Shown here piece by piece: positions 2,208 to 62,232 of a DNA stretch of 64,000 bases. The DNA lies in contig RPFO01000188.1 of the NCBI GenBank assembly GCA_009746045.1, forward strand, positions 1,628,955 to 1,692,954, written 5' to 3'. Position numbers and translations under genes: made by a program. Numbering within the stretch: position 1 is the stretch's first letter; each line of letters opens with the position of its first letter. A model generated the notes under the pieces. That model saw nothing but the letters and a program-made list of their open reading frames with translations, had not been told where the DNA came from and did not search any database. This stretch comes from Mesostigma viride. Lineage: Eukaryota > Streptophyta > Mesostigmatophyceae > Mesostigmatales > Mesostigmataceae.

Positions 2208-2400
2208 AATTAATTAAGTAATTAATTAGGAACATAACTCCGTTGGGAGTATATGTAGCACATATCCCGGAGAAGGGGCATATGGCTTTTAATACATTCT
2301 GGGCTACTTCCTGCAAGGGTGGGGATGTAAACGACGTCTTGCTCTAGGCCGGTGCACCAAGGGCATCGATCTGCACCACCATGATCTCTCAGAGCTCAAT
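2208..2400 (-). mobile_element. ORF1-only retroelement, 3'-end fragment (minus)
   Basis: On the minus strand this is the last ~165 bp of the ORF1-only family's 3'UTR, ending in the terminal hairpin ACTCC-CAAC-GGAGT (2237-2250) and a tail of AATTA units (2208-2229). It is strongly 5'-truncated and abuts an oppositely oriented copy at 2425. Confidence 0.75.
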
Positions 2401-2424
2401 TAAGGCCTGTCATGGGGCTCACTG

Positions 2425-3034
2425 TCATGGGAGCTATGGCGGACCTACCTCCAGCTCCGGCAGACCAAGGCGGGACAGCCGGTGTACTGGAAGGGGGCGG
2501 CCATCTACGTCGGCCACAAGCCCTGGCACGCGACCGGCCCCAGCGAACACCGCGGCCCCAGCGACTCCAGACGCCCCAGCTTAGGGGAATACAGCAGTAG
2601 CAGTGTAGAACAGTTAGACAGTGGCCTTGTACATGCACGCCTACTGCAGGCACTATACCAGCTGGCTTATTAACATTAATTAGTCATGTACATTTGTGCC
2701 CATGACGCGCCACACACCAGATGATGCCTCGCTTTATATTATTTAGTTATGCTGTGACCGCGCAGAGAGCCACTCTCTGCTGAGAAGCCATGCCTTAGCT
2801 TTTGTATAGCCATGCTGATCTTCCCTCCCCACGACAGGCTCCCCTTATAGCTGGGTTGAGCTTGATAGCTAGATCGTGGGGGTGCAAGTGCCCTGGTGCA
2901 CCTCGAGCAAGTGTCGTTTACATTCCCACCCTTGCAGGAAGTAGCTTAGAATGTATTAAAAGCCATATGCCCCTCAGTTCTCTGGGATATGTGCTACATT
3001 TACTCCCAACGGAGTTATGTTCCTAATTAATTAA
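2425..3034 (+). mobile_element. ORF1-only retroelement, 5'-truncated copy
   Basis: Starts inside the last ~50 codons of ORF1 (peptide RQTKAGQPVYWKGAAIYVGH-like, here reading ...GQPVYWKGAAIYVGHKPW), followed by the family's ~440-bp 3'UTR. It ends with hairpin ACTCC-CAAC-GGAGT at 3002-3015 and a CTAATTAATTAA tail. Together with 2208-2400 it forms an inverted pair of 3' ends. Confidence 0.8.
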
Positions 3035-3316
3035 TGGGGCTCACACCCGGGCAGCCTCCTGGTTTGTCTGTAATATGGAGGCAGATGGTACGCAAGGATA
3101 GATGGCAAGTGGTGATCAAGGAGACCACCCGCAAGTCTGTGGGGGCTCCGCGTGTGACCGCGTATGGCATTCATAGTGATTCGGGCCGCGGTGCCCACAA
3201 CCCTGTAACTAGGACCTAGATAGCTTACACCATGTCCATTCCATCCCATGTTCCCCTCTCACTGAGGACTTATGCTCACGTGACGCAGTCACGTGTCTAT
3301 TGATTAATAATAAATG
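3035..3316 (+). repeat. SINE-like family D copy
   Basis: About 280 bp without coding capacity, ending in the perfect hairpin CACGTGA-CGCAG-TCACGTG (about 3277-3295), then TCTATT and an AT tail. Related sequences occur on the minus strand near 2040-2190, 15173-15340 and 60150-60240. The hairpin-plus-AT-tail architecture is shared with family C, which has a proven target duplication at 63035/63178. Confidence 0.6.
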
Positions 3317-3504
3317 GGGTGCATGGAAGATCATCATGGCTATACAAGAGCTAGGGCATGGCTTCTCAACAGAGAGTGACTCTCTGCATAGGCAGAGCGT
3401 GGCTGAATTCTTGATGCAACATCCATGGGGCGTCCCATTATAGGCGTGGCTCGGGCTAAATTCTTAAGGCGTCATCCATGGGGGGCCATTATGGGCGCAC
3501 ATGC
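3317..3504 (-). repeat. Fragments of ORF1-only element 3'UTR and low-copy filler
   Basis: 3325-3400 matches the minus strand of the ORF1-only 3'UTR (the GCTTCTCAACAGAGAGTGAC segment). 3400-3504 contains two imperfect copies of a GGCGTC/CATCCATGGGG sentence. No gene is seen. Confidence 0.5.
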
Positions 3505-3522
3505 CCGTAGGCTATCGAGGTC

Positions 3523-4170
3523 TTGCAGAACACAGCAGGCCTCACCGCCCAGGCAGTGAAGGACATTGCCGCCAAGCCAGCCCCGGCTGGCCTAGCCGGC
3601 GATGCTCCTCCCATCACGACCTGGGCGGACATGCTTAAGCAACATACCACCTCCACCACCTCCGCCGTCGCAGCCCAGCTCCAGCGGCAGACGCTTGACC
3701 TCCGCGAGGAGGCCGAGCTCGCCAAGCGCAGCCTCAACGCCATACTCAAGAACTTCGACATGGAAGAAGGTGAGAATTCCGAGAAGCTTGCACGTGCGTT
3801 TGAGAGCAAAATCCTTGCACGCATGGGCCTTCTTGGTGAGATCAAGCTGACCGCCCACCGCCTCCCCCGCGCGCGGGGTAAGGCAGGGGCGCCTCCGCTT
3901 CTTCTCATCTTTGATAGCCCAGCGGACAAGATTTCGTTTCTCAGACGCCGCAAGCGGCTCGAGAATACTCCCTTCACCGTGGACGACGACTTGACCCTGG
4001 CACAGCAACAACGGCGACGGGAGCTATGGCCGACCTACCTCCAGCTCCGGCAGACCAAGAAGGCGGGACAGCCGGTGTACTGGAAGGGGGCGGCCATCTA
4101 CGTCGGCCACAAGCCCTGGCAAGCGACCCCCTCGACCACCGCGGCCCCAGCAACTCCAGCCCCAGCCTAG
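3523..4170 (+). pseudogene. L1-type ORF1 protein, C-terminal part
   Basis: The open frame encodes the last ~215 residues of the ORF1 protein found whole at 23099. It contains a helical, charged stretch (LDLREEAELAKRSLNAIL) likely to form a coiled coil. It is followed by an RRM-like segment (LLIFDSPADKISFLRRRKRL) and a C-terminal domain with DLTLAQQQRRRELWP and YWKGAAIYV. This order (coiled coil, RRM, C-terminal RNA-binding domain) is that of LINE-1 ORF1p, an RNA-binding chaperone of the retrotransposition particle. The copy lacks the N-terminal ~240 residues through 5' truncation but has no stop in what remains. Confidence 0.75.
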
Positions 4171-4950: not shown

Positions 4951-4996
4951 TCATCAATTCAAATACCACACATGTGGTAGTTGACTATTGCATGCT

Positions 4997-5063
4997 GCCC
5001 TTGCCATTAAATTAAATTAAATTATAACATGCCTCCGTGGGGAGGTCATGTAGCCCTTGCCAT
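4997..5063 (-). repeat. Extremely 5'-truncated LINE insertion (45 bp) with target duplication
   Basis: Between two copies of GCCCTTGCCAT (4997-5007 and 5053-5063) lie only an AAATT-repeat tail and the LINE's last ~25 nt: hairpin CTCC-CCAC-GGAG on the minus strand at 5033-5044, then CATG. It sits in the hAT 3' region and proves that the hairpin is the physical 3' end of the LINE transcript. A third GCCCTTGCCAT at 5071 is pre-existing. Confidence 0.8.
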
Positions 5064-5402
5064 GCATGTAGCCCTTGCCATGGTGCAACTGTTTTCTGCA
5101 GGCTCATAAACAACACCTCACTAGCTTTACTCCCATGGAATAACCGTGTTCTGATCGTCGTAATCCTTTATGGCGTCAATCGCGCGGAGGTTGTGGTGCA
5201 CGTAGATGAGGCGGTTGTGGTTGACATGCGTCATGCGGTTTCGCTTGAGCGACTTGATCCAGCCGGCTTCGCTGTTGACACGCTCGACAGAGCCCGAGGA
5301 GACCGGCTGGGCCAGCACCTTGATCGCCACCTCCTGCAGCTCGGGCGTGGAGCCGCCCCAGGTGCGCCACAACTGGTACGGCACCATGCCCGGCGCCTGT
5401 GC

Positions 5403-5886: not shown

Positions 5887-8800
5887 ATGGGAGATCCTAT
5901 TATGCCAGGCCTGAAATTCAAAAAGAAGCGGATAGATGATGCTGGCTGGCAGACGGTGCCAACAGTAGAGGAGAAGGCTGCGGCCAAGAAAATTAAAAAA
6001 GCAAGAAGGGCGCAGGCGGAGCAGGAACAGCTAGTGGCTAGGCAGCTAGCGACAGCGATGGCTCAGCAAAGCGTCAAGGCAGCCGCCCAAGAGCGGCAGC
6101 TGGCAGCCCTGCAAAAACAGGTAACCTCCTTGGCCGAACAGGCCGAAAAATCTGTTTTTTCTAGCCCAGCTAGCTCGCAAAAATCCGTAAGCAGTATGCG
6201 GTCCCCCAGCCCTCAGGCAAGCCCCGCTGACCTCCCCGCTAAGGCACCGTCCCAACCTCCTCAGGAGGAGGGCGGAATAGCCAAAAGCGGTGGAGAACAA
6301 GCGGGGGTGCCGATCGTCCCCTCATCCGCTCAGAAAGCGGGGGGGTACGAGAGGAAGCTGAAGAGGGACGCATACATGTTCAAAATGCGGACCAAGAAGG
6401 TCCCAGGACCCGTCATCGGCAGCATTCAGCTGTCTGATGACGAGGTCACCCTCTCCCCAGGGGTTTCTGATGGGGAGATTGAGATGAATCCACTCAATCA
6501 GGCGGTCGAACAGGCCGCCGCCCAGTTTGTAGAGGCACGCCGTCTTGCACAGCAAGAGCGGGACCGCAAAAAGACAGCGGCCCGCAACATGACTGCTGAA
6601 AAGCAGCTGGCTGCCATGCAAGCTGGAGAGGTGCTCCATGAGCGCCTCTTCAATGAGCTGGTTGTTGCACAGGGGGACGAGGGGGTCACGCTAACAGCGG
6701 ACCAACTCAATTCCCTCCTGTTGCAGCTGACCAAGCTGCAGGAGAAGATGCAGGCAACAGAAACGCCTGCACTCCCTGCACATACCCTCCCCACCCCTGG
6801 CACTGATTTGAGCCAAAGGGTGGTTGGAGGGGCCGTGTCACCAAGGGTGCTGCAGGGCAAGAGCCAGGGCACTGTCCCCAGCTCCCCCAGCAAACCCCCA
6901 AGTGACCCGGATGCCCAGGAGCTCCACCGCCGCAAGGTGGTGGAGAATAAACTCCTAGAGGCCATGATAGCCCGTGAGGGCGGCCTGGCAGCCCAAGCAG
7001 CAGCGCTGCAGCAGCTTGGCCAGGCCAAGGGTTTTCCTACCAGCAGTGGAGTAAGGCAAGGGGAACAAGACCCTGCGCCTGCAGCTGGAACACCACCAGC
7101 CACTGCACTAGCACAGCAAGCTGGAACACAACCACCTTCTGCGGAGGCCCAGCAGACTGCACCCACACCAGGGCAGTCAGATAAGAGCAAGGCGGTGGCA
7201 AAAGGGACCCCAGTGGACCCAACCCCACCCACCCTTAAGGGGGACGTCCAAGAGCTGCTTGCCATACTCACGGCACAGCTCAAGACCATGGCCACCAACC
7301 CCATGGACGACCTGTCGCGCACCCAGCTGGATGGCCTCCTGGCCAGTATCTCCCAGCTGGAAAGGGGCAGGGCGAACATGGAGGAGGCTGATCTTCAACA
7401 AGCAGTCAAGACTTTCTTGGCTGAAAAGAAGGACCCGGTCAAAGGTACGTTTAACCCAAAACAAAAAGAATCTAAAATAGAAATCCCTGGCTTACCTGAG
7501 GGTTACACCCAGGAACAGGCCAAGGAATTTTTGTTTAGCCTGAACTACTGTTTTGAGTCTCTGAATGTCCAGAACTGGTTCAGTGCCTTGCGTGCATCCA
7601 CCACCATCCATAGGTCAGCCCCAGCCATTAAAACCTTGGTCCAGATTTACCAAGAAAAGGCTGGGACACCTAACCTAGCAATTGCATTGTGGCCAGCCTT
7701 CATGGATGAGCTTAAGCACTTGCTGGTGGATAGGACACAGTTTGAATCCATCCGTGGTTTCAACTGGCTTAATGCTTACCAGGTCAACAAGCAAGACTAT
7801 GCCACTGATTGCAAGAATTATAGGTTGGCTGTAGAAAAGGACCCTGATCTCAGGGGTCTGCCTGCTAGCTACCTGCTGTATTCATGGTTGTCAAATGCTA
7901 ACCTGGACAAAGCTGTGTACGCCACTGTGGTTGCAGGTCTCAAACCTCTGTGGAACGATTTCCGGGCGGGGATGAACCATATCCAAGACTGCCTGACTCC
8001 CCTGGCTATAGGTGCTCCGTCTGCAACCCCAACCCCCAAGGTCCAACAGACCCAAGGGAAGGGGCAAGGAAAAAAGCGCCAGCTAGGGGGGCAGCAGGGC
8101 GGCCAGTCCAAGAAGGCCAAGGGCAACCAGCCCCAAGGCCAGCCGGGACAGCCTGCTCAGCTCAAGCCAAACCAGTGGAGGCGGCCCACCCCCCCCACAC
8201 CTGCCCCACCCACCCCTGCACCCACTGCTCAGCCCCCCCATGCAGGTCCCAAGAACAAGTGCACCCGGTGTGGCACCAAGGGACACCAGCGGGCGGACTG
8301 CAAGTGGAACCCCGCAGTAGGCGACGTGGACCTCTGCTTCGGTTGCAAGCACCCCCGCCATCTGCCCCCCGGCACGTGGTGCGACCGGCAGGACAAGGCT
8401 CCAAAAGGATGTACGTCCTCACAGCACGCCTATGTGGATTTATATGATCTCATTATCATTGGGGATAAAGACAAGGGACTGCTAGATTTTGAGGCAGCTC
8501 AGAAAATCTCCTCCACGTATAATGTGATACTGCCCTACCTCAAAGCTCTTACCCCAGCTGCTGTTGACACAGTAGACTTAAGGGAACTAGCAACCCAGCT
8601 CCACATAGCCATGGGTCATGAGGTGGTGGCAGAAAAGATTGCCAGAAGAGCAGGAGGTTCACGACTCAGGAATGCTGTCAGGTTGGCTAGAAAACACTGC
8701 CAGCAATGTCAGTTCCATGGCCCAAAACCTCCCAAATGGCATGTCGCAACACCACCCACCCAAAGGGGAATAATTGTGGGTGATGTCGTGCATATCGATG

Positions 8801-9971
8801 GTGAACAATATCTGATCCTAAAAGACACATGGTCCAGATTCACTGTCATGGAACCCCTACCTGGCATGGCTAAAGAGCAACTGCGTGCAGCACTTGTGAT
8901 AGCATTGCCCAGATTCTACCCAGTTGACACTATACTGCTTGATCAACAGTTTAGCTGTCTGGCTGAGTGTGAAGGATGGGATGCTAATATTGAGATTGCT
9001 GGATTGCAAGATCATGAAGGGCAGGGTGTCATTGAAAGAACCATCAGGTCAGTCAAAACTTTAGTGGCGAAATCCACTGACCTGAAAGCCACATCTGGAA
9101 GCTATGCTGACAGAGCACTGTGGTGCAGTGAAATCTGTGCTACACTTAACCTTAGACCTGTGTTGCATGCACCATGGGGGGAAATCCTTCCCATTGGCTT
9201 ACAGGCAGGTGTGTACCCTCCAGAGGTATTAGCTCTGTATAACACAGTAAGGGCTAAAGTGGCTGATAAGCTAGCTGAAAAGGACATAACACACCCCAGA
9301 ACAGTATTCCAACTGGGTGAACAAGTCCTATATTTCAAAGAAACCAAACATGGCAAGACAGGCATGTGGTATGGTCCGTGCACTGTTCTAAGAATGACCA
9401 AAAAAGGAAAAAATATGGATATTCGAAGTTTGGAAACAGGGAGAAAACACAGGGTGAGCAGTCATAGAGTTAAGAAGTATTTCCCTCCTTTGGCAGACGT
9501 GCCAGGGGAAGAGTCCTTGAACATGGATTCCCTCCTTAACTCTGGTGAGCAAGCAGAACCACCCAGCATTCCAACACCAGGAGCTGATGATGGCACTACC
9601 ACACCCTCTGTCATTCCTCCACCCCTCAGTGAGGTACGTGTCACCCCACAACCTGGTGTAAGTCCCTCTGGGCAGAGTTCAACCAGGCATGAGGTACCAG
9701 AGCAAAACAAAGGCAATCCAGCTGAGTTCAAATCCAAGCTAGAAAAAGCCCTGGCAGCTCTGCATAAGGCTCACAAGAGCAAGGCTAAACAAGCCTCAGG
9801 TTTGGCCAAGGTCTCTGCTGTGTGCTCCGATTATAGCCAGGAATCCTGCATCCTAGCTGTGGACACTCAGGCACAGGTCAGTGTGATCAGTGCACAAGCC
9901 ATTCCTGGTCTGCAACTTGCACCCTCACCATGGACACAGGTGCAAGATTTTTCAGGCCTCTTGCAGTCGCT
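5403..9971 (+). mobile_element. Gag-integrase retroelement inserted in hAT transposase exon
   Basis: Flanked by a 6-bp duplication CTGTGC (5397-5402, 9972-9977) within the hAT exon, so both boundaries look like genuine integration ends. It holds one long ORF on the plus strand. No reverse transcriptase or RNase H is present, and no second copy of the 5' leader (5403-5886) is found at the right end, so a 3' LTR is not visible. Either the 3' half was deleted up to the last bases, or this is a non-autonomous derivative. Short similarity exists between the ends (AGCCTCTAGTCG versus GCCTCTTGCAGTCG). Confidence 0.75.
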
Positions 9972-10053
9972 CTGTGCAAATGCACCCTGCTGGTCGGTGT
10001 ATTGCTCGTACTGCTTGATGGCCAGGTCGAAGGCTGCCTTGTCGCCCAGATGA
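5887..10053 (+). CDS. Gag-integrase polyprotein with a retropepsin-like segment after the integrase
   Basis: Intronless ORF of 1388 codons; the last ~26 come from antisense hAT sequence. Residues 1-780 are a basic, coiled-coil and Pro/Gln-rich gag-like part. A CCHC knuckle lies at 792-805 (CTRCGTKGHQRADC) with a second Cys-rich motif near 817. An integrase zinc-binding site follows (LHIAMGH near 906, CQQC near 937). The catalytic core has D971 (HIDGEQY), D1019 (LLDQQF) and E1050 (GQGVIERT), and a GPY/F-like MWYGP motif near 1160. At 1323-1335 comes ILAVDTQAQVSVIS, which looks like the active-site strand of a retropepsin with DTQ instead of DT/SG. Integrase before any RT recalls copia-type order, but a protease after integrase is unusual. 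Start is the first ATG in a long open frame. Identity as retroelement gag-integrase is firm; the protease call is inference. Confidence 0.85.
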   Translation: MGDPIMPGLKFKKKRIDDAGWQTVPTVEEKAAAKKIKKARRAQAEQEQLVARQLATAMAQQSVKAAAQERQLAALQKQVTSLAEQAEKSVFSSPASSQKSVSSMRSPSPQASPADLPAKAPSQPPQEEGGIAKSGGEQAGVPIVPSSAQKAGGYERKLKRDAYMFKMRTKKVPGPVIGSIQLSDDEVTLSPGVSDGEIEMNPLNQAVEQAAAQFVEARRLAQQERDRKKTAARNMTAEKQLAAMQAGEVLHERLFNELVVAQGDEGVTLTADQLNSLLLQLTKLQEKMQATETPALPAHTLPTPGTDLSQRVVGGAVSPRVLQGKSQGTVPSSPSKPPSDPDAQELHRRKVVENKLLEAMIAREGGLAAQAAALQQLGQAKGFPTSSGVRQGEQDPAPAAGTPPATALAQQAGTQPPSAEAQQTAPTPGQSDKSKAVAKGTPVDPTPPTLKGDVQELLAILTAQLKTMATNPMDDLSRTQLDGLLASISQLERGRANMEEADLQQAVKTFLAEKKDPVKGTFNPKQKESKIEIPGLPEGYTQEQAKEFLFSLNYCFESLNVQNWFSALRASTTIHRSAPAIKTLVQIYQEKAGTPNLAIALWPAFMDELKHLLVDRTQFESIRGFNWLNAYQVNKQDYATDCKNYRLAVEKDPDLRGLPASYLLYSWLSNANLDKAVYATVVAGLKPLWNDFRAGMNHIQDCLTPLAIGAPSATPTPKVQQTQGKGQGKKRQLGGQQGGQSKKAKGNQPQGQPGQPAQLKPNQWRRPTPPTPAPPTPAPTAQPPHAGPKNKCTRCGTKGHQRADCKWNPAVGDVDLCFGCKHPRHLPPGTWCDRQDKAPKGCTSSQHAYVDLYDLIIIGDKDKGLLDFEAAQKISSTYNVILPYLKALTPAAVDTVDLRELATQLHIAMGHEVVAEKIARRAGGSRLRNAVRLARKHCQQCQFHGPKPPKWHVATPPTQRGIIVGDVVHIDGEQYLILKDTWSRFTVMEPLPGMAKEQLRAALVIALPRFYPVDTILLDQQFSCLAECEGWDANIEIAGLQDHEGQGVIERTIRSVKTLVAKSTDLKATSGSYADRALWCSEICATLNLRPVLHAPWGEILPIGLQAGVYPPEVLALYNTVRAKVADKLAEKDITHPRTVFQLGEQVLYFKETKHGKTGMWYGPCTVLRMTKKGKNMDIRSLETGRKHRVSSHRVKKYFPPLADVPGEESLNMDSLLNSGEQAEPPSIPTPGADDGTTTPSVIPPPLSEVRVTPQPGVSPSGQSSTRHEVPEQNKGNPAEFKSKLEKALAALHKAHKSKAKQASGLAKVSAVCSDYSQESCILAVDTQAQVSVISAQAIPGLQLAPSPWTQVQDFSGLLQSLCANAPCWSVYCSYCLMARSKAALSPR

Positions 10054-13250: not shown

Positions 13251-13524
13251 AGTAACTCTCTGCTGAGACGCCATGCATGCCCTAGCTTTTTGTATAGCTA
13301 TGCTGATCTTCCCCCCCATGCATGACAGGCTCCCCCTTCGCTGGGCATAGCTTGAAGATCATGGGGATGCAAGTGCCCTGGTGCACCTAGAGCAAGGGTC
13401 CTTTACATCCCCACCCTTGCAGGAAGTAGCTTAGGATGTATGATAGGCCATATGCCCCCCTCTCAGGGGCTATGTGCTACATATACTCCCAACGGAGTTA
13501 TGTTACAATTCAATTCAATTCAAT

Positions 13525-15172: not shown

Positions 15173-15900
15173 AATAGACACGTGACTGCGTCACGTGAGC
15201 ATAAGTCGTCACGGGGAGGGGAACATGGGATGCCAAGGGATGATGCTAGCTATCTAGGTCCTAGTTTCAGGGGTGTGGGCACCACGGTCCGAATCGCTAT
15301 ATGAATGCCATACGCGGTCACATGCGTCCGGAGCCCCCGTAGTCACTGCATGCCGCCATGGCAGCCATGCTTATGAATGTTTGCCTAGTTGTGCCACCTT
15401 ACCTAGTCACGTGCACCGCTAACGCACGGTACACAACCAGCCATAGCCTTCTTCGCTTTCGGTCCTTGTACAGCCATGCTACGTACGTCCTGGCTTCGAT
15501 CACTGAGATTACTTGCCCACGCTCCTTGTTATGATATGCTCACATGGGTCTTATTGCACCCACATGCTGCCGGATCGTTAGCGTGTCCGTTTAGCTAGCG
15601 CGCCCGAATGCAGCTGTGGCATGCCTTAGGCATGAAGGAGACTAGGGGTCCGTCTGCCCTTTCTCCTGTTGTGCACACACAGGGATTAAAAGCACTTCGG
15701 TGCTCCGTGACTCCCCAATTAACGGGAGCATGAGTTTAATTAATTAATTAAACCCCCGTGGACAGACTTGGGGGTGGTCTCCTTATCTGAATTATAATCA
15801 CTATGGTTACGAAAAGTGGTCACACGCGGAGCCCCCTGGCACCGACTTGGTCCGGCGGTATCTTTCATAACCATCTGCATGCATGCCACCTACCTTTACA
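15173..15900 (-). repeat. SINE-like family D copy split by family B insertion
   Basis: 15173-15340 is the minus-strand 3' part of family D (hairpin CACGTGA-CTGCG-TCACGTG at ~15179-15197). After the family B element (15341-15752) family D resumes at CCCCCGTGGACAGACTTG (15753 on) and decays by ~15900. Confidence 0.6.
15341..15752 (+). repeat. SINE-like family B copy with 7-bp target duplication
   Basis: Non-coding ~410-bp element between CCCCCGT at 15334-15340 and 15753-15759. Its 3' end carries AGCAC-TTCG-GTGCT, then hairpin CTCCC...GGGAG (15711-15728), CATGAG and a TTAATTAA tail. The GTGCT-CCGTGA-CTCCC-GGGAG-CATG order matches the LINE and ORF1-only 3' ends. Confidence 0.75.
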
Positions 15901-15917
15901 AGCCATGAATCTGCCGA

Positions 15918-16249: not shown

Positions 16250-18455
16250 ACATATATCAAGGCCTCTCCTGGATCCTGAGGGACACTACTGCTATATTCC
16301 CGCCTAGGCTGGGGTTGCTGCATGGAGTACACTGGGGCGCGGCAGGGGTCGCCTGCCCAAGGGCTTGTGGTCGACGTAGATGACCGCCCCCCTCCAGTAT
16401 ACCCGCGGCTTCTTCCTGGCTGCTGTCTGCCGGAGCTGGAGGTATACATAGGTCGGCCATAGCTCCCGTCGCCGTTGTTGCTGCGCCAGCTAGGTCAAGT
16501 CGCTCCAGCCACTGAGCGTGTAGGAGGTCCCCATGACTCGCCGCTTGCGGCCGCTTGAGAAACAGCAACCGTTGTCCCGGCCAATGATGTACTCAAAGGT
16601 GCTCAAGGAGCAGCTGGGGCAGCCGGGTCCAGCCTTACCCCGCGTGGGCCGGAAGGCGGACGGCCTCCAGCTTGAGCGGCACCGATTCCGGAGGGCCATG
16701 GGGGCAAGCTAGGATGCCTGGTCGCAAACGCCTTGGCAAGGGATTCGGAGGCCTCACCTGGCATGCAGCTGCATGGTCGAGGTGCTTAATTACGAAGACT
16801 GTTGCGGCTGCGCTTAATTGTCGTCTAGCTGGCGAGCTCGGCCTCCAGCTAGCGGAGGTCAAGCGTCTGTTGCTTGATGAGCTGGGCGGCGATGGCGGAG
16901 GTATGTGGTGCATGGTGGTGCATGGCGTGCATGGTTCATCAGCATGGTTGCCCAGGTCTGGGTGGGAGGTGCATCGCCGGCTAAGCCAGCGCAGGGGCTG
17001 GCCGGGCGGCAATCGGTCCTTCACCGCAGGCCGGGCGCCTGCCGGCAGTGATCGAGGCCCGTGTGGTGTTTTGCAAGCACTCGATTGCGAGACTGGTGTG
17101 ATCCGGCCGCGAGCCGCTTGTCGATTGCGAGGAGCTGGGGGCAGTGATGGCGTCGATGGTGGCGCTGGTCAGACGTCACCACCGTACGGTGCAGGTCAGA
17201 GGCAAGGAGGGCGGGCCGGCGGTGGCGGTGGCGGTGGTGATTGAGAGAAGGGCCGGGAGCTCGGCAGCCAGCATGCCTCCCATTACGTAATTAAACTCAT
17301 GCTCCCGTTAATTGGGGAGTCACGGAGCACCGAAGGGCTTTAAATCCCTGTGTGTGCACAACAGGAAGGAAGGGCAGAGACCCCGGCCTTTCTCCTTCAT
17401 GCCAGAGGCATGTCACAGCTGCAATCGGACGCGATAAACGATCCGGCAAGGTCTGTGGGTGCAATAAGGCCCATAAGAGCATATCATAACAAGGAGCGTG
17501 GGCAAGTAATCTGAGCATAGCCAGGACGTAGCTAACAAGGCTGTACAAGGACTAAGCTAAGGCTATGGCTGGTTGTGTACCGTGTGTTGGCGGTGCACGT
17601 GACTAGGTATGGCACAGCTAGGCAAACATTCTAGGCGCATGCCTCCCAATGATGGCCGGCCGGCGGCCACCTCTGCAGCGAGGGGCCCATGGGTCACGCA
17701 TGCATGCTGCTCGAAGGGAGTGAATGGTGGTTTCGGTCAACTAGGTGGCCAGGGGGTGGTGGGCGCCCGCAGCTCCTCGATCGTCGGACAGAGCGCCCGA
17801 GGAGGGAGCAGAGGGCCGGCATACTTCTAAAGGCGGGCCGCGGGGTGAGGGTGGCTGTTAAGAGGGAATCATTCAACCGAATGAGTGTAAAGCGCTCGTG
17901 GAGTCATCACGGAGGCGGTTCCGTTGGTGGAGGTGCTTGCACAGTTCAATAAGCGAGACATGCCATATCCCCAAAACACGTAGGACTAGCTGGAATCCGT
18001 CGGGGTTGAGCTTGTAAAAAAAGCCGGGCTGGCTAGTGGCGGGCGTCAAAGTCGAACGTTCGCGTCCCAGCCGCGAGGTTTGGCACTGAGGGCGCGACTG
18101 CACTTGGGCTCAGGCGATGCCGACGGCGAGGCGAGCCCGGGGGGAGCCGAGGCAACCACGAGTGCTTGACTAACTTGGCACCGCTGCCTTCCGGGCCAAA
18201 GGGCGAAGCTGCAGCCGAAGCTGCAGAGGTATTTTCAGGGCTCTGCGCAGCCACCAGCCGGGCTGCATTGCGTAGAGGAGCATTTGCTCAGTCGTCATAA
18301 TATCGCGTGATAGCTGCGGGAAAATAAATCAGCGTGTGCGTCTTAGAAAGATGACGAAGCGATTGTGATAGTCACGGCAAACTTTGGAGCCCAAACGTGA
18401 AAGTTATGGGCGCCGCCGTCAGCCATGCCGTATCCCGTGGCTCGAGGCCAAAGTC
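16250..18455 (-). mobile_element. ORF1-only retroelement, degraded copy split by family B
   Basis: Minus-strand ORF1-only element: 5' part near 18455-18290 (same leader as at 22931), ORF1 remnants through 18250-16300 with many frameshifts (ALNCRLAGELGLQLAEVKRL-like remnants on the shadow strand mark the coiled-coil region), then a truncated 3' end. A family B element with a 12-bp target duplication interrupts it at 17283-17636. The stretch 16061-16249 between it and family C contains nothing I can identify. Confidence 0.75.
17283..17636 (-). repeat. SINE-like family B copy with 12-bp target duplication
   Basis: Flanked by GCATGCCTCCCA at 17271-17282 and 17637-17648. Element is 354 bp, minus strand, ending in hairpin CTCCC...GGGAG (17302-17319) with a short AATTACGTAA tail. 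Removing it and one duplicate restores alignment of the surrounding ORF1 copy to the intact one. Confidence 0.9.
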
Positions 18456-19581: not shown

Positions 19582-19807
19582 TACTCCGTGACTCCCCAAC
19601 GGGAGCACGTGCTGCATTAATTTCACGCAAAAGGCCAGATTCTTTTACGGATCGAACCATTTGTGAATAAAGGCATGAGTTGTCATCTAGGGTCACATGT
19701 GAAGTCGCGGTCATGACCAGACCCCGCCCTGTGTGAAAACCATTATATCTCTTCGTTGAATCAGTATATGGTAGGCTGGTAAGTAACCCTAAACAGTTGT
19801 CGCTCGG

Positions 19808-20200
19808 ATTAATAAATTAATTAATTAAACTCGTGCTCCCGTTGGGGAGTCACGGAGCACCGGAGTGCTTTTAATCCCCAGGTGTGTGCGCAACAGGAAG
19901 AAAGGGCACAGACCCCCTTTCTCCATCATGCCAGAGGCATGCCACAGCTGCAATCGGACACGATAGACGATCTGGCAAGGTCTGTGGGTGCAATAACACC
20001 CATGTGAGCATATCATAACAAGGAGCGTGGGCAAGTAATCTGAGCATAGCCAGGACGTAGCATGGCTGTACAAGGGCTAAGCTAAGGCTACATGGCTGGT
20101 TGTGTACATACTGTGTGTTAGCCATGCACGTGACTAGGTATCAAGGAGACAACCACGTGACTAGGTATGGTGGCTCAGCTAGGCAAACACTAGGCATGGT
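19808..20200 (-). repeat. SINE-like family B copy
   Basis: Minus-strand family B: tail of TTAA units, hairpin CTCCC-CAAC-GGGAG (19836-19849), AGCACCGGAGTGCT stem, and a body matching the copy at 17283-17636 up to about 20195. The sequence 20200-20354 is unassigned. Confidence 0.8.
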
Positions 20201-22648: not shown

Positions 22649-22652
22649 TTAA

Positions 22653-22918: not shown

Positions 22919-22930
22919 TTACACTCCTGG

Positions 22931-24906
22931 TTTACACGAGCCACGAGCCACGAGCCACGAGCCACGAGGTAGCCATGGCTGTCGGAGCTCATAACTTTCA
23001 CGTTTGAGCGCCGAATTCAGCTGTGAATATCACAATCGCTTCGTCTTTCTAAGACGCACATGCTGATATAATTTTCCGACGCTATTACGCAATATACGAT
23101 GAGCAAACGCCTCTCGACGCAACGCAGCCTGGCGGCTGCGCTTAGCAATGAAAATACGTCTGCAGCCTCGGCTGCAGCTTCGCCAACCGGCCCAGATGGC
23201 AACGGTGACACTAGTAGTGCACTGGTGCTCGCCCAGCCTTCCGGGCTCGCCTCGCCATCAGCATCGCCTGAACCTAAGCGCAGTCGCTCTGCTGAGCCGC
23301 CCTGGGAAGAGCGCTCCTTTGACATCAACAGCCCCGGCTTCTGGCAACGCAGCGCCGGTTGGTTCATGGAAGACTTGTTTTTCGGCAATCACGCCTCGCT
23401 TCTAGCCCTGTGCGTGCACCTCACGTCCCACAACCGTGGACGCTGGCCTGGTGATGGCCGGCTTGTCGACCCCGCCGAGGCTCTCCCAATCATCCACCGC
23501 ATGAGTCGCCCCAAGCTCCAACGCTTCGCCCTCTGCTCCCTTGTTGGACGCTCCGAATCCGAGATCTGGACTCCCAAACCGCCCCCCTTCCCCTCCGAAG
23601 CCTCCATCCGCACCCTCCTCAAGGAAGCTTTCGAGCAGCACGTGACCCCTCTTGCAGCAGATGTGGCGGCAATTGGCGGCACGCTGGCTGCTGAGCTTCC
23701 CACCATCCCCACCGCCACCGCCACCCTCCTCGCCTCCACCCCCCCCCCTCCACCGACTCCATCACCGCCCAGCTCCGTGACATCGACCAGCGCCTCAAGG
23801 ATAATGCAATCGCTATCGAGGTCTTGCAGAACACAGCAGGCCTCACCGCCCAGGCAGTGAAGGACATTGCCGCCAAGCCAGCCCCGGCGGGCCTGGCCGG
23901 CGATGCTCCTCCCATCACGACCTGGGCGGACATGCTTAAGCAACATACCACCTCCACCACCTCCGCCGTCGCAGCCCAGCTCCAGCGGCAGACGCTTGAC
24001 CTCCGCGAGGAGGCCGAGCTCGACAAGCGCAGCCTCAACGCCATACTCAAGAACTTGGACATGGAAGAAGGTGAGAATTCCGAGAAGCTTGCACGTGCGT
24101 TTGAGAGCAAAATCCTTGCACGCATGGGCCTTCTTGGTGAGATCAAGCTGACCGCCCACCGCCTCCCCCGCGCGCGGGGTAAGGCAGGGGCGCCTCCGCT
24201 TCTTCTCATCTTTGATAGCCCAGCGGACAAGATTTCGTTTCTCAGACGCCGCAAGCGGCTCGCGAATACTCCCTTCACCGTGGACGACGACTTGACCCTG
24301 GCACAGCAACAACGGCGACGGGAGCTATGGCCGACCTACACCCAGCTCCGGCAGACCAAGGCGGGCCAGCCGGTGTACTGGAAGGGGGCGGCCATCTACG
24401 TCGGCCACAAGCCCTGGCAAGCGACCCCCTCGACCACCGCGGCCCCAGCAACTCCAGCCCCAGCCTAGGGGAATACAGCAGTAGTGTAGAATAGTTAGAC
24501 AGTGGCCTTGTACATGCCCGCCTACTACAGGCACTATACCAGCTGAGGCCTAGCCTTTTTAGTCATGTACATGTGTGCCTATGATGAGCCACACTCCAGA
24601 CGATGCCTAGCCTTATTTAGTAATGTTGTGCCCATGCAGGGAGTCACTCTCTGCTGAGAAGCCATGCCATAGCTCCTGTATAGCCATGATGATCTTCCCC
24701 CACATGCCACGCTCCCCCTTAACTGGGCATAGCGCGATACATCATGAGGGTGCAGGTGCCTTGGTGCACCTAGAGCAGGGGTAGCTTACATTCCCACCCT
24801 TGCATGAAGTAGCCTAGAATGTATTAAAAGCCATATGCCCCTTCTCAGGGCTATGTGCTACATCTACTCCCAACGGAGTGATGTTGATAATTAATTAATT
24901 AATTAA
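22931..24906 (+). mobile_element. ORF1-only retroelement, full-length copy with 12-bp target duplication
   Basis: Exactly flanked by TTACACTCCTGG (22919-22930, 24907-24918). The 1976-bp element has a 5' leader beginning with CACGAGC heptamer repeats, an ORF1-type gene (23099-24468), a 438-bp 3'UTR, the terminal hairpin ACTCC-CAAC-GGAGT (24866-24879) and an AATT-repeat tail. It has no endonuclease or reverse transcriptase ORF, so it must be copied in trans. The target sequence contains TGTAA on the minus strand ~295 bp downstream of the peroxidase stop, possibly that gene's polyadenylation signal. Confidence 0.9.
23099..24468 (+). CDS. L1-type ORF1 protein (one -1 frameshift)
   Basis: Two overlapping frames (23099-23860 and 23824-24468) read as one ~456-residue protein with a shift at a run of ten C at 23739-23748. 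The copy at 56.7 kb reads through here without a break (TAQLRDIDQRLKDNAISIEVL). N-terminal ~60 residues are Ala/Ser/Pro-rich. The middle is unassigned, then comes a coiled coil (~290-330), an RRM-like part with LLLIFDSPADKISFLRRRKR, and a C-terminal domain with VDDDLTLAQQQRRRELWP and GAAIYVGHKPW. This is the layout of LINE-1 ORF1p, an RNA-binding trimeric chaperone. The frameshift could be a mutation, a homopolymer sequencing error, or slippage on the C-run. The start is the ATG after GCAATATACG, conserved in position in the other copies. Confidence 0.7.
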
Positions 24907-24918
24907 TTACACTCCTGG

Positions 24919-53264: not shown

Positions 53265-53545
53265 ACTCATTAATTACATAATTAAACACGTGCTCGATCC
53301 CGTTGGGGAGTCACGGAGCACCGAAGTGCTTTTAATCCCTGTGTGTGCACAACAGGAGAAAGGGCAGAGACCCCCAGTCTCCTTCATGCCTAAGGCATGC
53401 CACAGCTGCATTCGGGCACGCTAGCGAAACGGACACGCTAACGATCCGGCAATCTGTGGGTGTAATAAGACCCATGTGAGCATGGCATAACAAGTCCTGA
53501 TCGAGCGTGTGCAAGTATCTGACCGTAGCCACTAGCCATGGGCAA
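53265..53545 (-). repeat. SINE-like family B copy
   Basis: Minus strand: AATTA tail, a hairpin variant (CCC-CAAC-GGG) at ~53298-53310, AGCACCGAAGTGCT stem, body similar to the copy at 17283-17636 but ~70 bp shorter at its 5' end. Confidence 0.8.
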
Positions 53546-54479: not shown

Positions 54480-54648
54480 ATTAAATTAAAATTTAAATTA
54501 TAACATGACTCCGTTGGGAGATCATGTAGTAATTAAGTAAGTACTTGCGTGTCATGATGCGCAAAGGCATGCCACGGAGTACTATTAATTAATTAATTAA
54601 TTAATTAATTAGGAACATAACTCCGTTGGGAGTATCTGTAGCACATAG
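54480..54648 (-). repeat. Two tandem, severely truncated retroelement 3' ends
   Basis: 54480-54529 has the AAATT tail plus hairpin (CTCC...GGAG, 54508-54520) of LINE type. 54584-54648 has the AATT tail plus ACTCC-CAAC-GGAGT (54620-54633) of the ORF1-only type. Each keeps under 40 nt of element body. Confidence 0.75.
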
Positions 54649-54654
54649 CCCAGC

Positions 54655-55104
54655 CAGAGCCGCCCTTGGTCTGGCTGGCCCCCAGCGGCTTGGCCAGCCA
54701 GGGCGCCACATTCTGACCTGGCCTGGCCCCGAGGGCATTCCCAAAAGGGTAGGGAAACCTGTCACGAACTACATCCAAATGTTGCTGGACGACCTAGTGG
54801 TCCCAGCCCAGTTTGAGCACCGCATCCACTCTCTCTCCCGTCAGTTTGGACTGCCATGCAGGACAAGACGCGGTGGAAGAAGATTGTCAAGGCTCACACG
54901 CCCGACCCTGTGGGCAAGCCCCCTCCCCCCAAGCGGAGGAGGCGTTTTGATGAGTAGTGTACATAGTTAGGATTTTCTAGACTAGATAGCTTAGAGTTAG
55001 GATAGTTCGATCACGCGGCTTCCTCCACCCCATCCATCATGGAATATGTGCTACATGATCTCCCCACGGAGGCATGTTATAATTTAATTTAATTTAATTT
55101 AATA
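54655..55104 (+). mobile_element. LINE, 5'-truncated copy (C-terminus of RT ORF and 3'UTR)
   Basis: Encodes the last ~95 residues of the LINE protein (LAGPQRLGQPGRHILTWPGP; KPVTNYIQMLLDDLVVP; KRRRRFDE-type basic end, here frameshifted). Then comes the 3'UTR, hairpin CTCC-CCAC-GGAG (55060-55071) and an ATTTA tail. Confidence 0.85.
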
Positions 55105-55866: not shown

Positions 55867-56096
55867 TAAATTAAATTAAATTAAATTAAATTATAACATG
55901 CCTCCGTGGGGAGGTCATGTAGCACATATTTCATGATGGGTGGGGTGGAGGAAGCCGCGTGATCGAACTATCCTAACTCTATCTAGAAAATCCTAACTGC
56001 ACTACTCATCAAAACGCCTCCTCCGCTTGGGGGGAGGTGGCTTGCCCACAGGGTCGGGCGTGTGCGCCTTGACAATCTTCCACCGACGGGAGAGAG
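55867..56096 (-). mobile_element. LINE, 230-bp truncated insertion with 12-bp target duplication
   Basis: Between AAGAAGGCCCAT copies (55855-55866, 56097-56108). Contains on the minus strand the basic C-terminus (KIVKAHTPDPVGKPPPP), the 3'UTR, hairpin CTCC-CCAC-GGAG (55902-55913) and an AAATT tail. Confidence 0.92.
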
Positions 56097-56322: not shown

Positions 56323-56628
56323 TCTCTCGCGTGCAGACACGTGTGTAGTACTCCTACACACACAGATCTCGAATGATTTATCTAGTACCGAATCCGAAAG
56401 GCTTGCATCACTCCCCGGAAAGGAGAATTTTTGCGGATGACTGTAGGTGTAAGTTGGCGATGCCCTAGCTAGGATCCGGAGACGTCCGTCCTATAGTCAG
56501 CGAAAGTTGGTGCGAGAGGTCCCCAGTTCGATTCCGGTCGGATTCATTTGCAGATCGCGTTTTCCGCGTTTTCCGCGGACCGGCACTGAACGCAAATGGT
56601 TTTCACCTTTGCGGCGTGCCAAATCAGA
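56323..56628 (+). mobile_element. 306-bp insertion with tRNA-like segment and 12-bp target duplication
   Basis: Flanked by ATGTCCGCCCAG (56311-56322, 56629-56640). At about 56490-56550 there is a tRNA-like stretch: TCCGTCCTATAGTC (acceptor and A-box-like), AGTTCGATTCC (B-box-like, T loop) and GGTCGGATT closing the stem. It may be a tRNA-derived SINE or a tRNA pseudogene carried along. It lacks the AT tail of the other families. Confidence 0.5.
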
Positions 56629-57009: not shown

Positions 57010-57633
57010 AAGCACTAGATGGGGATGTAATCCTCATCCGAACTGTCCTCTACTAGCTGTAATGGCAGACGAGGCGGTAGTGTAGCGGCTATCCTCAGGG
57101 CCAATAACCTCCACCTGCGGACTTCTACTACCCTTGCTACTGAGCAACGGGCCGCGGGGCCCGTGGGGAGAAAACAGGAGCACACCCCTCAGGAAGGTGC
57201 TTATCGCAGATGGCAGCCCATTTCTCCTTGTCAATCATGCGAGCGCGGAGTACGGATAGTCCCAGAAGCCCTGCATCTTCAAGCAGTTGTGTCACATAGG
57301 TCCGGGTCGCGCCGCGCCGGTGCCGGGCGCGCGCAAGTTTGCCAGTGGGTTGTGATGCATGGGACAAGGGGACCCTGCCATAGAAGGAGGTGTCTACCCA
57401 TGGTTGGCCCGTCTAAAGCCCCCCGGCAGGGCCCACATTGGTATTCACCTGGTCTGTGCGGGCAAGATGGCCGCGGGCAAAGAGGAGGCGGCGGTGTCGG
57501 ATGGTACTGGGTGACAAGAGGGAGCTCGCAGTAGAGGTCGGCCCGGGTGCGCCGCGTTCTTCATGGTAGCGGACGCCGAGGATATGACGGAGCATTCTAG
57601 TGACGGTGCCGTCAAGCTGCTGGCTCAGCGCCT
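57010..57633 (-). mobile_element. LINE fragment, RT C-terminal region
   Basis: On the minus strand, MLRHILGVRYHEE and RHRRLLFARGHLARTDQVN, then RTYVTQLLEDAGL and DKEKWAAICDKHLP, with frameshifts. It is the continuation of the LINE protein that runs off the right end of this window (MLRHILGVRY at 63960). No clear 3' hairpin is seen. 56931-57009 is unassigned. Confidence 0.75.
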
Positions 57634-57960
57634 GGTCATGTAGTACGTATTCCCTTGCTGATGGGTGGGGGTGAGAAAAGCCGCGAAACCTAACTAAGCT
57701 AACTCTGCTAATCTACAAAAATCCTAGCTAGTCATGGACGTCAGCAAAGCGCCCCTTCCTCCTCGGGGGGGGGGCCGGGCTTGCCCACAGGGGCTGGCGT
57801 GTGGGCCTGGACAATGGTCTGCCACCTCTTCTTTTCCTGCATAGCCTAGTCCAAGCAAGAGAGAGGGAGGAAATGCGGTGCATATATAAACTCATGGGCT
57901 GGGACCACTAGGTCGGCCGGCAACTGATCTGTATAGTTCATGGCAGGTCTACCAAACTTG
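57634..57960 (-). mobile_element. Diverged LINE 3' fragment
   Basis: Minus strand reads a relative of the LINE C-terminus (KKRWQTIVQAHTPAPVGKPG) and its 3'UTR down to CTACATG at the joint with the preceding fragment. The hairpin and tail are absent. 57961-58182 is unassigned. Confidence 0.65.
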
Positions 57961-58182: not shown

Positions 58183-60078
58183 GGGGAGGGTCCCATAGAA
58201 ATATATCAAAACTTACCCCCCCTAATAACTACAGAAATGCAACTGACAACCACTGAATGATGTTTGGGGACCATAAACATGATGTTTGGGCATGCATACC
58301 ACCACTTGTTGGGGGTACTACCCCCAGCCATACACCGGCTATGAGCTAAAAATAGAAAAAAACGCTGTCCGGGGCACATCTTGCCCAGAACAGTGGGAGA
58401 ACCAGTTGCATGAAAAAAGCACACCCCATATAAAAATGTCATGGGACATTGTTTCTACCTAATTGGATCAACAAAATCAGCACATCCCTTTGAGTTATTA
58501 ATTTTTGGGCCAAAAATACGCTTTTTTAGGCGGGGCGTCCCCATACACACTCATAACACATCAATTAGGCCTGAAAAGCACAAGTCAAATTCTGTCATGA
58601 CCATAGAAGGCACTGTCAAAGTTTGGTGGCATTCTGAGCTCAGCTGTAGCAGTTATTAATTTTGGCAGTTGGCCACCTGTGCAGACGCTAAGGAAGGCAT
58701 TAGTGAGTATTAAGGCACACTAACACTTCCTATGCCATCCAAAAGGCTCCTGACCATGCCCAATTCGACCACAATGTACAAGGAGGTGGCTGGGCACGTC
58801 ATGTGCCCTTGCCTTACCTCGACACGGGCAACCTGTTGCGTGTGTGCACAACAATGAGGCAGGTAGCTCTACATGCCTAGCCAACACTTCTAAAGCATAT
58901 TCCAGGTTTATGGTGTGGGCATCATCCCAAAACCAAGCTCAAACACACCCTAGAAAGCCATATCCACTAATTGCCCAACAAGGGTAACAACAGACAGTCC
59001 ACAGAGAAAGCAGAATTATCATACATGCTGCTTGCCAAGGCTTCTTACCATGGTTACCTTGCCTTGCTAGCATATGAATTAGGGCTCTCCCATTTTAGTG
59101 GGAGAAAGGCCAACAAGACAACGATAACCCCTACCTACGTGCAGTTCCACCCATGCAGTATGCCCCTCAGAAAAACCACTGCCACCTTTCTTTCCAGCGC
59201 AATTGTTTGCCAAGAAACAAACTCAAGCTTGTGAGCCTCTAACCACAATGAAGCCTCTGCTAAGAAAGGCCGCGTCAATATTCACACAAAACTGAGTGCT
59301 GTTAGCAATCTCCTTCCAAGAAAACACTCAGCAAATCCCTGACAACTTGACGATATGCCACGGTCACGCTTTGACACATCCCGCCATGCAACGTACATAA
59401 AAACCACTGAAAGGTGCCAGGAATCTGGCGATGCGCAGCACGGAATGGCATTATACCTGGCGCTAACTGCACGGAAAGAAGCCGAAAACTTGCGTTGATA
59501 ACCCATAAAGGAAGCGAAACATTCATAGGGTCACGTTGATCACACGATCGTACCATTACCGGAATTGTCCTTCGCCCAGCGGCGCAAGAAAGAACAACCT
59601 TCCATGGAATAATAAGACGCGCATCCCGCGAGCCTGGAGAGTGTCTTACCGATCATGACGGAAATCTTGCCGAAACCCAGCAAATTTTTTAAAGCTTTAC
59701 CAATAACGATTTAAACGCATCCTTGACGCTAGGTAAAGCCCATAAAACCTGACAATCACCGCCGCCAGCGTGCATTCTAATTTATTCCTCTCGACGAAAA
59801 CATCAGATTGGACCCCCGTGGCGATGGTCATCAATAAAATCATCGACACTGCAAAAAACGCGAACTCCGCTACGAAGTAGTATCATTTACTCATCGTCTT
59901 TAAGATTCGCTCAGTTTCTCTGCATTCCGCGAGCTATCTTTTTCTACTCTGCCTGAAAGCACGTCGCCATGGCCAGCTCCGGTAGGGGTGCGCGCCCCGT
60001 GCACCACTTTTTCACGGTACGGACGGGTACCGCGAATTTTTCGGCGCCAAATTAAATATTCGCGCCGGGACCGTCCCC
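58183..60078 (-). mobile_element. TTAA-associated DNA element, copy 2 (inverted, diverged)
   Basis: The minus strand matches the copy at 20359 in order: GGGGACGG end, the palindromic GGCGCC region with GAA/TTC flanks, GTGCACGG.GCGCGCACCCC, later TGGGGGTAGTACCCCC and TGGTCCCCAA phrases. The other end is GGGGAGGGTCCC at 58183. The right flank is TTAA, the left ATAA (probably a mutated TTAA). No transposase ORF. Confidence 0.65.
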
Positions 60079-60240
60079 TTAATTAATTAATTAATTAATT
60101 AATTAATTAATTAATTAATTAATTAATTAATTAATTAATTAATTAATTAGTTAATAGACACGGGACTGCGTCACGTGAGCATAAGTCCTCAGTGGGAGGG
60201 GAACATGGGATGGAATGGATGGTGTAAGCTATCATGTATA
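60079..60240 (-). repeat. (TTAA)n tract and SINE-like family D 3' end
   Basis: About 70 bp of pure TTAA repeats join the DNA element to a minus-strand family D end (TAATAGACACGGGACTGCGT, hairpin slightly decayed) that continues to about 60240. The length of the tract suggests repeated insertions into one another's tails. Confidence 0.75.
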
Positions 60241-62232
60241 CGACCTGGACTATCGTCCCCGCCAGCCTCCCCCCAACCCCCTGCCGACACCGCGGGTCCC
60301 CGGCGCCCCCTGCTGGGCCAACGCCGGCACCACTCGCTGCGAATCGCTACCTACAATGTCCGCACCCTGCCCGGCCGGGGGAGATGCCCCCCCGCGGGCC
60401 AACGAGCTTGTCCACTACTGCCGCCTATATGGCATTGATTTGGAGTGCTTGGGGTCCAAGAGCACCGACGCTCCTTTGAGGGCCCCGTTCAGCGTGTCAC
60501 CCTCGCACTACAATGGCAACTGCTGTGCGGCCCGTCGCATGCAACGGGTCAGGGAGGACTGGGCCAGGCTGCTGTGCTCCCCCACCGCTGCCGCCCAGCT
60601 CGTAGACCACAAACTTTGCTCTAATCGGATCCTTCAGTGCACTTTCCGCTCCCTTGAAGGACGGACCCCCATTATGCTCTCGGTAATTGTCGGATATGCC
60701 CCACATGCTGGGCACCCGGCCGAGGACCGCGCAGCGTTCTTCAACCAGTTGCTCGACATAGAGAAACAGATCCCACGTCACTACATCGTTGCCATCTTGG
60801 TGGATGCCAACGCGACCCTGCCCGTGGGTCGCGGGGGCTGCATGTATGCGCCGCGCCTAACCGATAGCAATGCCAACACCCCCCTACTTGAGCAACTACT
60901 CACTGAGGGGGACTTGACTGCTGCCAATACGCTGTTTGCTAAACCGCCTGATGCACTAGTGACCTTTGTGGGCCCCATGCGCAAGGCGGCTGGCTCGATG
61001 CTCCCTCGGCGGCGATGTGTATGCTTGGACTACATACTTGTGCGCAAGTGCTGGCGCTCTTCCGCCAGATCGATGCCCGTACGCTGACCACCCCCAGTGT
61101 CGCATCGGATCACCGCATGGTCACCGCAACCTTGCGCCTACGTCTCCTACTTCAGGCCCCAGGCTGCGCGCCGCCGCCCCCGGCCCCGCCCTGACTGGAC
61201 CTGCTTACGCCCCGTCCATATGGGCGCAGGGAGAAGTGGTCAGAGGATGACTGAGATACGCCGCGATGCAATCAGGTCTGCCTTCGTGGACGCGCAACCT
61301 TTGATGTACCTGGACGCAGATCGCGGTGTAGATCTCACGCCACCCTACGAACTGTTCATGCAATCGGTGGAGCTTGGCTCTAAGCTTCTACCCGAGCAAC
61401 CCCGCGCCCGACCAGCCCCGCTCTACCTGCGCGACGCCCGGGTGGTTGCCGCCCGGCTGCATGGCGCTAGCGCAGGCCCGCCGCGCCGCGGGGAGGACCT
61501 GTACCCGTACCAGGAACGCGGCTTACTCAAGCATATATACTGCCGCACATGCGGAGGCATGCTCTTCAAGGTCCTCGTCCTCACGGTGCTCACGTATGGC
61601 GCCGAGGCGTGGACCCTCCCACCCAAACTGGCAGCTCGGCTCGACGGCACCGTTTACAGGATGCTCCGGCAGGTCCTTAATGTAGGTTTTTCCGAGCGTC
61701 CGTCATCAGAGTCTCTGTATCATGGCATGCCTCGTGTTTCGGACGAGATTAGGCAGCGTAGGATAGCATTTGTAGGACACCTTGCCCGCACCAGCCAGGT
61801 CGACACCACCCTTGGTCTGGCCGGCCCCCAGCGGCTTGGACAGCCAGGGCGGCACATTCTGACCTGGCCTGGCCCCAAGGACATTCCCAAAAGGGTAGGG
61901 AAACCTGTCACCAACTACGTTCAGATGTTGCTGGACGACCTAGTGGTCCCAGCCCAGTTCAGTGAGCACCGCATCCACTCTCTCTCCCGTCTTTGGACTG
62001 CCATGCAGGACAAGACGCGGTGGAAGAAGATTGTCAAGGCGCACACGCCCGACCCTGTGGGCAAGCCACCTCCCCCCAAGCGGAGGAGGCGTTTTGATGA
62101 GTAGTGTAGTTAGGATTTTCTAGATAGAGTTAGGATAGTTCGATCACGCGGCTTCCCCCACCCCATCCATCATGAAATATGTGCTACATGACCTACCCAC
62201 GGAGGCATGTTATAATTTAATTTAATTTTTAA
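60241..62232 (+). mobile_element. LINE copy with endonuclease and C-terminus, RT core deleted
   Basis: EN-type protein with several frameshifts: LRIATYNVRTLPG (60335), NELVHYCRLYGIDLECLGSK, VIVGYAPHAGHPAEDR, VDANATLPVG, CLDYILVRK, then SDHRMV (61106). This is an apurinic-like endonuclease layout. After LYLRDARVVAARLHG the sequence jumps to GGMLFKVLVLTVLTYGAEAW, so the RT palm with YADD is missing. The C-terminus (RRIAFVGHLARTSQVD...KRRRRFDE) is intact, followed by 3'UTR, terminal hairpin (~62191-62204) and AATTT tail. The ...LTYGAEAWTL wording and AT-repeat tail recall RTE-like LINEs. Not autonomous. Confidence 0.85.

Follow-up and report, generated by a model that had tools for sequence, protein, structure and literature searches.

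Unrelated retroelements of the streptophyte alga Mesostigma viride end in one and the same way, with a two-part RNA hairpin followed by a short AT-rich tail. We describe this end in a 64,000-bp stretch of the genome (contig RPFO01000188.1, positions 1,628,955 to 1,692,954; hereafter the window), where it terminates copies of a long interspersed nuclear element (LINE), here called L, of an element, O, that carries open reading frame 1 (ORF1) only, and, in a variant form, of a short family, B; LB denotes a LINE-like carrier of the B-type hairpin. The reading we favor, with a probability of roughly 0.8, is that L is a LINE of the stringent type, that the shared end serves as its 3' recognition element, and that the RNAs of O, and probably of B, are copied in trans. 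Combined model and repeat scans covered the window extended by 200 kb of flanks (264 kb in all), and genome-wide searches covered the M. viride assembly of 439,911,974 bases.

The shared 3' hairpin

The initial annotation had listed like ends at 13 positions, and all 13 were found to bear the end: four belong to L, five to O and three to B, and one, at 54508, is intermediate between L and O (Table 1). Allowing up to three mismatches, ACTCCCNNCGGAGNNATG matched the window 17 times against an expectation of 5.5, a number that 0 of 100 shuffles attained. Exact copies of CTACATNNNCTCCCMACGGAGNNATGTT in the assembly numbered 10,094 (5,080 + 5,014), whereas its reversed control had no genomic match. 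Among the first 30 genomic loci listed, all on contig C1, 12 had L bodies and 18 had O bodies, so that, as anticipated, more than one body type is joined to the end (loci L047 and L036 were put to O partly by eye, and the solo end at L049 was counted as L).

Folding of eight ends gave a stem-loop made of a 5-bp lower stem (ACAUG/CAUGU), a single bulged nucleotide on the 5' side, a 5-bp upper stem and a 4-nt loop, CCAC or CAAC; in L RNA, it is followed by AUGUU and then by an AU-rich repeat. The hairpin as first described corresponds to the upper half and was right as far as it went, but the lower stem and the bulge had been missed. For six ends other than those of L (O, B and 54508), folding gave z scores of -2.4 to -4.6 against shuffles. 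The five O copies are 94.6% identical in the hairpin, compared with 74.7% in the 150 columns upstream.

Changes in the stem proved to be compensatory, as had been proposed. In an alignment of 14 ends from the window (13 distinct), 92.3% of cells were paired, compared with at most 45.4% with slid partners; with the flanks included (25 ends, 19 distinct), the values were 91.6% and at most 46.3%. Five of the 10 pairs had changed on both sides with pairing kept, in the smaller alignment and in the larger one alike. The number of paired cells, the number of doubly changed cells and the covariation score each lay above all 500 column shuffles, and it is these measures, with the slid controls, that support covariation. 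(Alignment A6 leaves out L5033, the core of which is that of L55902, and B53273, in which an insertion breaks the stem; both are in alignment A1.) The genomic pattern left five positions free, and we examined the pairs among them in 100 ends from the matches listed, which comprised 17 distinct variants. The free lower pair was standard in 96 of these 100 ends (A-U 38, G-C 38, C-G 9, U.G 6, G.U 5, unpaired 4; shuffle p 0.007 over the 17 distinct variants) and for the closing pair, likewise free, the number was 85, or 98 if the bulge is shifted by one (shuffle p 0.015).

In the 264 kb, a structure model built from 10 L, O and 54508 ends had 24 matches at E ≤ 0.5, namely, the 10 training ends and 14 others (three L, three O, seven B-type, including B19836, and one chance match). 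Judged by AT tail or known body, 13 of these 14 are real ends; the match at L011:6005 was set aside as chance.

Target-site duplications and 5' truncation support insertion by target-primed reverse transcription. Duplications of 9 to 12 bp surround L55060, L55902, L62191, L5033 (read by eye), O24866, O3002, O54620 and B17302, and seven exact bases are duplicated at B15711. The duplication script found none for O13485, O2237, B19836, B53273 and the 54508 end, nor for C15165 and C2084 (of a family C described below), and gave only weak 7-mers for C3315 and C60079. When the flanks of L55902 were rejoined, they matched O24866 at 100 of 101 positions, and the rejoined flanks of L55060 and B17302 aligned across the joint. 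Since rejoined flanks lack the tails, we ruled out that the tails are preexisting target DNA. The nick fell between the C and the A of CAT at five of nine sites, or six of nine with B17302 moved over by 1 bp, against a CAT frequency of 0.023 per position; this tally is small, and the tail boundary is ambiguous.

The LINE L and the ORF1-only element O

The bodies of L and O are alike only in their last ~50 nt, which agrees with the earlier view that the end is joined to unrelated elements. A LINE with a long open ORF2 frame was found among its carriers, also as expected: one L copy has a 1064-amino-acid open frame, a stop codon, an 85-nt untranslated region (UTR) and then the shared hairpin. 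The frame begins with an endonuclease (EN)-like motif (12-residue match, E 0.66), and L loci align to a composite of EN and reverse transcriptase (RT) over its RT and C-terminal part. That L carries an ORF2 with EN and RT was judged from this frame and the composite, the Pfam RVT_1 score in Table 1 being that of a related LINE, L2. A search with the C terminus of L ORF2 gave 22,727 first-look candidates, of which 150 were scored; where EN starts and C termini could be paired as candidate full ORF2 copies, the two lay about 3.17 kb apart. The EN ORF by itself had no match in a protein search, and Pfam returned nothing meaningful for a single LINE ORF and a single O ORF. The 1064-amino-acid copy runs into a different repeat about 20 nt ahead of the EN motif, and 39 other copies of that repeat cease to match at 182 to 188 of 271.

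In the window, L62191 comprises the C-terminal part of the RT and the 85-nt 3' UTR and is nested in L2, so that what had been taken for a single LINE at 62 kb is two. The 45-bp insertion at 5008 to 5052 (L5033), which is only hairpin and tail, had been regarded as the minimal 3' end. It is no proof of a minimal signal, because 5' truncation marks where cDNA synthesis stopped and not what the RT requires, nor is it an independent event, because it sits in a larger repeat whose flanks recur at locus L049. An 18-bp duplication at 5047 to 5082 consists of the target and the first bases of this insertion, and the whole context recurs at L049.

O24866, a full-length copy with a duplication, has an ORF1 (23099 to 24468, with one frameshift) and no ORF2. 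The protein is predicted to be an RNA-binding protein resembling L1 ORF1p, on the basis of a model of moderate confidence (predicted local distance difference test score [pLDDT] 73) with a coiled coil, RNA recognition motif and C-terminal domain, of which the RNA recognition motif is best supported; unlike LINE-1 ORF1p, it has no ORF2 on the same element. Fold prediction for the full-length ORF1 was unusable (pLDDT 44), and the protein had no PDB sequence match at E ≤ 1. All 51 clusters of homologues (7,996 candidates scored) are M. viride gene models. O54620 is interrupted by L55060, L55902 and a tRNA-like SINE (short interspersed nuclear element). The tRNA-like insert, of 306 bp (56323 to 56628, + strand), has a B box at 56525 and the duplication ATGTCCGCCCAG and ends in neither the shared hairpin nor an AT tail; pieces related to it lie at locus L005.

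The layout of O24866 is like that of HAL1 (half-L1), a mammalian ORF1-type element without ORF2 that is reported to derive from L1 (Bao and Jurka, 2010). HAL1 is described as a shorter version of L1 in the excerpted text of PMC8535693. By this analogy, O could descend through deletion from a LINE of the L type, having kept ORF1 and the constrained end and lost ORF2 while the rest of its 3' UTR diverged; it would then be copied in the way proposed here and differ in origin alone. We consider such a descent possible, though it is not the account we favor. A protein like L1 ORF1p is what two-ORF LINEs encode, and an L copy on contig C1413 (EN at 4067517 to 4067602, - strand) has an O-type ORF1 (4069329 to 4069970, - strand) 1.7 kb upstream by coordinates, but that ORF1 could belong to a neighboring or nested O, as at locus L054. 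Moreover, whereas HAL1 derives from L1, the body of O shows no similarity to that of L beyond the ~50 nt; tblastn (E ≤ 1) of the upstream sequence read for five L copies detected no O ORF1, and four of these copies (L055 to L058) have in common ~430 nt ahead of the region where ORF2 starts; and no ORF2 match in the 264 kb had an O-type ORF1 of like orientation within several kilobases on its upstream side. At L054 itself (C1391:4718751-4719220), an O tail directly abuts a 5'-truncated L, which may be a nested insertion or a template jump.

An ORF1-only partner with an intact, selected ORF1 raises the question of whether ORF1 and ORF2 could live on separate elements. L and O might together make up a split LINE, L giving the EN-RT and O giving the L1-type ORF1 RNA-binding protein from a separate RNA, with the common 3' stem-loop as their sole link. 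We think this unlikely, but if it were so, O would be a partner kept under selection, beyond a mere parasite.

Family B and related LINEs

B17302, at 354 bp with a 12-bp duplication, is short and SINE-like. We go no further than this label because no complete pair of RNA polymerase III promoter boxes was found: with consensus sequences for the boxes, no B box with two or fewer mismatches was present in four B copies, and three of the four had A-box-like sites with two mismatches. The initial annotation had assigned one end to all three families, but the B hairpin is a distinct, compensated variant that also occurs on the LINE-like 3' UTR of LB. B-type ends at L016:860 and L005:8926 have another upstream body, and the one upstream of L016:860 resembles the L 3' UTR (local score 29, compared with a maximum of 24 in 2,000 shuffles). 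From this likeness, LB is probably a sister LINE of L and would have an ORF2 of its own; because it carries the B variant, it is probably a likelier partner of B than L is.

The RT of L2, the LINE interrupted by L62191 and by an element D, matched L1 ORF2p (6.8e-13) and R2 (2.9e-11) in the PDB, and a C-terminal motif may be RTE-like. The 3' end of L2, ~0.6 kb past the window, has a different hairpin, TTTGCG-CATGACA-CGCAAG, followed by (ACTT)n, with four copies in the 264 kb. A second end class, with the hairpin CACGTGAC-GCA-GTCACGTG and TTAA tails, is found on two bodies, C and D; the sequence upstream of C looks by eye like an ORF2 C terminus, and D has the duplication GATTACACCAAGGC. Neither hairpin was accepted as belonging to the family of the shared end, since the sequences differ. 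That related LINEs each have their own hairpin and repeat fits enzyme-specific recognition, and the presence of several such families in one genome makes RT-RNA coevolution testable by swaps.

Proposed recognition of the shared end

In the mechanism we propose, the L ORF2 protein, with EN and RT, would bind the stem-loop and nick the target, leaving a primer that ends in AT; the primer would anneal to the AU repeat, where the cDNA would begin, and slippage on that repeat would produce the tail of (AATTT)n or (AATT)n. A large share of copies are 5' truncated and flanked by 9- to 12-bp duplications. RNAs with a compatible end would be copied in trans, among them the O mRNA and the RNA of B, whose variant hairpin suggests LB.

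Several results weigh against recognition by L. Single-sequence folding of two L copies gave z scores of only -1.9 and -1.4, with 10 and 16 of 200 shuffles doing as well. The number of pairs with two-sided change was reached by 77 (14 ends) and 273 (25 ends) of 500 column shuffles and the number of pair types by 399 and 417, and the two free pairs were unpaired in 4 and 15 of the 100 listed genomic ends. The tails differ among the three families (AATTT; AATT, AATTC or TTAA; TTAA in B), a mix that a single RT need not yield. Finally, plain alignment of B with L scored within reach of shuffles and so gives no sequence link, and the model of L and O ends clearly detected only one of the four full B copies in the window.

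The last two points would suit a B hairpin that is only convergently similar and a B served by an unrelated LINE. We regard this as improbable. The B hairpin has the bulge position, the loop and the place before the AT tail of the L and O hairpins and aligns with them without gaps outside the loop; B19836 was the best nontraining match of the model in the window (18.6 bits, E 0.0024), the next (12.6 bits) was also B-type, and B-type copies were the next-best class in the flanks; and the same hairpin stands on LB, with its L-like 3' UTR. More improbable still is that the hairpin is shared through selection for 3'-end formation, termination or RNA stability, for although it is terminal in every family seen, it directly precedes slippage-type tails that belong to the inserts, and L2 and C have hairpin-tail pairs of their own, as enzyme-specific ends would. 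The main inference of the initial annotation is probably right.

Recognition of the hairpin by the RT is probable by analogy with known systems. In the excerpted text of PMC4176376, UnaL2 of eel with its SINE and ZfL2-1 and ZfL2-2 of zebrafish likewise have terminal short repeats and a 3' stem-loop built of an upper and a lower stem, their partners share the LINE end as O shares that of L, and binding of the stem-loop was demonstrated for the part of ORF2 that lies between EN and RT. The likeness to L is drawn from structure, and the Mesostigma partner O encodes a protein. In the green lineage, the RandI/L1 LINEs of Chlamydomonas and SINEX-1 to SINEX-6 form pairs with 3' ends in common and (ATT)n among their repeats; this is another species, likened here by description, and no ORF1-only partner is described in the excerpted text (PMC3747384). 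The principle of a stringent LINE with partners is therefore already known, and the unusual part is a partner that is ORF1-only and protein coding. Stringent recognition of the 3' end probably extends to a streptophyte alga, which bears on a proposal that the ancestral LINE of green plants was stringent (PMC3747384). In excerpts of two papers on the Mesostigma genome, "LINE" appears a single time, naming a class in the legend of a chart, and "SINE" not at all (PMC6947507), and neither word is mentioned (PMC7027972); literature searches, judged by titles, gave no publication on SINE/LINE pairs in Mesostigma.

Table 1. Ends and elements in the window and its flanks
Feature	Positions	Strand	Basis or remarks
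L55060 hairpin, then (AATTT)n tail	55051..55084	+	sequence, folding, model
L55060, 5'-truncated LINE copy inside O54620	54654..55101	+	ATAGCCCAG duplicated at 54645 and 55102
L55902 hairpin, L-type	55889..55922	-	model match
L55902, 5'-truncated LINE copy in O54620 ORF1	55867..56096	-	duplication ATGGGCCTTCTT
L62191 hairpin, L-type, one stem mismatch	62184..62217	+	sequence, folding, model
L62191, 5'-truncated LINE copy nested in L2	61558..62231	+	duplication ATGCGGAGG at 61549 and 62232
L5033 hairpin, L-type, in the 45-bp insertion	5020..5053	-	duplication ATGGCAAGGGC, by eye
Intermediate solo end (x54508), L tail, CAAC loop	54496..54529	-	sequence, folding, model
O24866 hairpin	24858..24891	+	folding, model
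O24866, full-length ORF1-only element	22931..24906	+	TTACACTCCTGG duplicated at 22919 and 24907
O3002 hairpin	2994..3027	+	ATGGGGCTCAC duplicated at 2412 and 3034; element 2423-3033
O2237 hairpin	2225..2258	-	model match
O13485 hairpin, (AATTC)n tail	13477..13510	+	sequence, model
O54620 hairpin	54608..54641	-	element about 56930-54583; duplication TAGTACTCC
B15711 hairpin, 4-nt loop insertion	15703..15738	+	sequence, folding, alignment
B17302 hairpin, loop insertion	17294..17329	-	element 17283-17636; duplication TGGGAGGCATGC
B19836 hairpin	19823..19857	-	folding, model
B53273 hairpin, fourth B copy, stem broken by 4-nt insertion; new relative to the earlier list	53285..53319	-	sequence, alignment
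B-type solo hairpin without clear TTAA tail	19586..19617	+	model, alignment
L2, related LINE interrupted by L62191 and D	60234..64000	+	EN 60234-61557, linker from 62241
L2 RT parts	about 62500-63047 and 63191-64000	+	joined frame RVT_1 2.3e-23
L2-type hairpin copies	L002:618; window 54563; two more in flanks	+; -; 	
CACGTGAC-GCA-GTCACGTG hairpins	3277-3315; 15197-15165; 60177-60079; 63048-63177	+; -; -; +	
Degenerate copies of the CACGTGAC/GTCACGTG class	2084; 15933		

No tRNA genes were found, an Rfam scan gave only subthreshold Plasmid_RNAIII matches lying on a (TTAA)n run, and one exact pattern of the shared end had no copy in viral contigs. At 57560 to 57948 (- strand), a diverged LINE 3' UTR running up to CTACATGACC is joined to RT C-terminal sequence; this chimera has GACC microhomology at the joint and is perhaps a template jump. 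A 1388-amino-acid ORF at 5887 to 10053 looks integrase-like by eye and has no Pfam match. A further repeat with an uncharacterized ORF (L052:1-2514) gave 211 first-look candidates, of which 150 were scored, with 98 to 100% identity.

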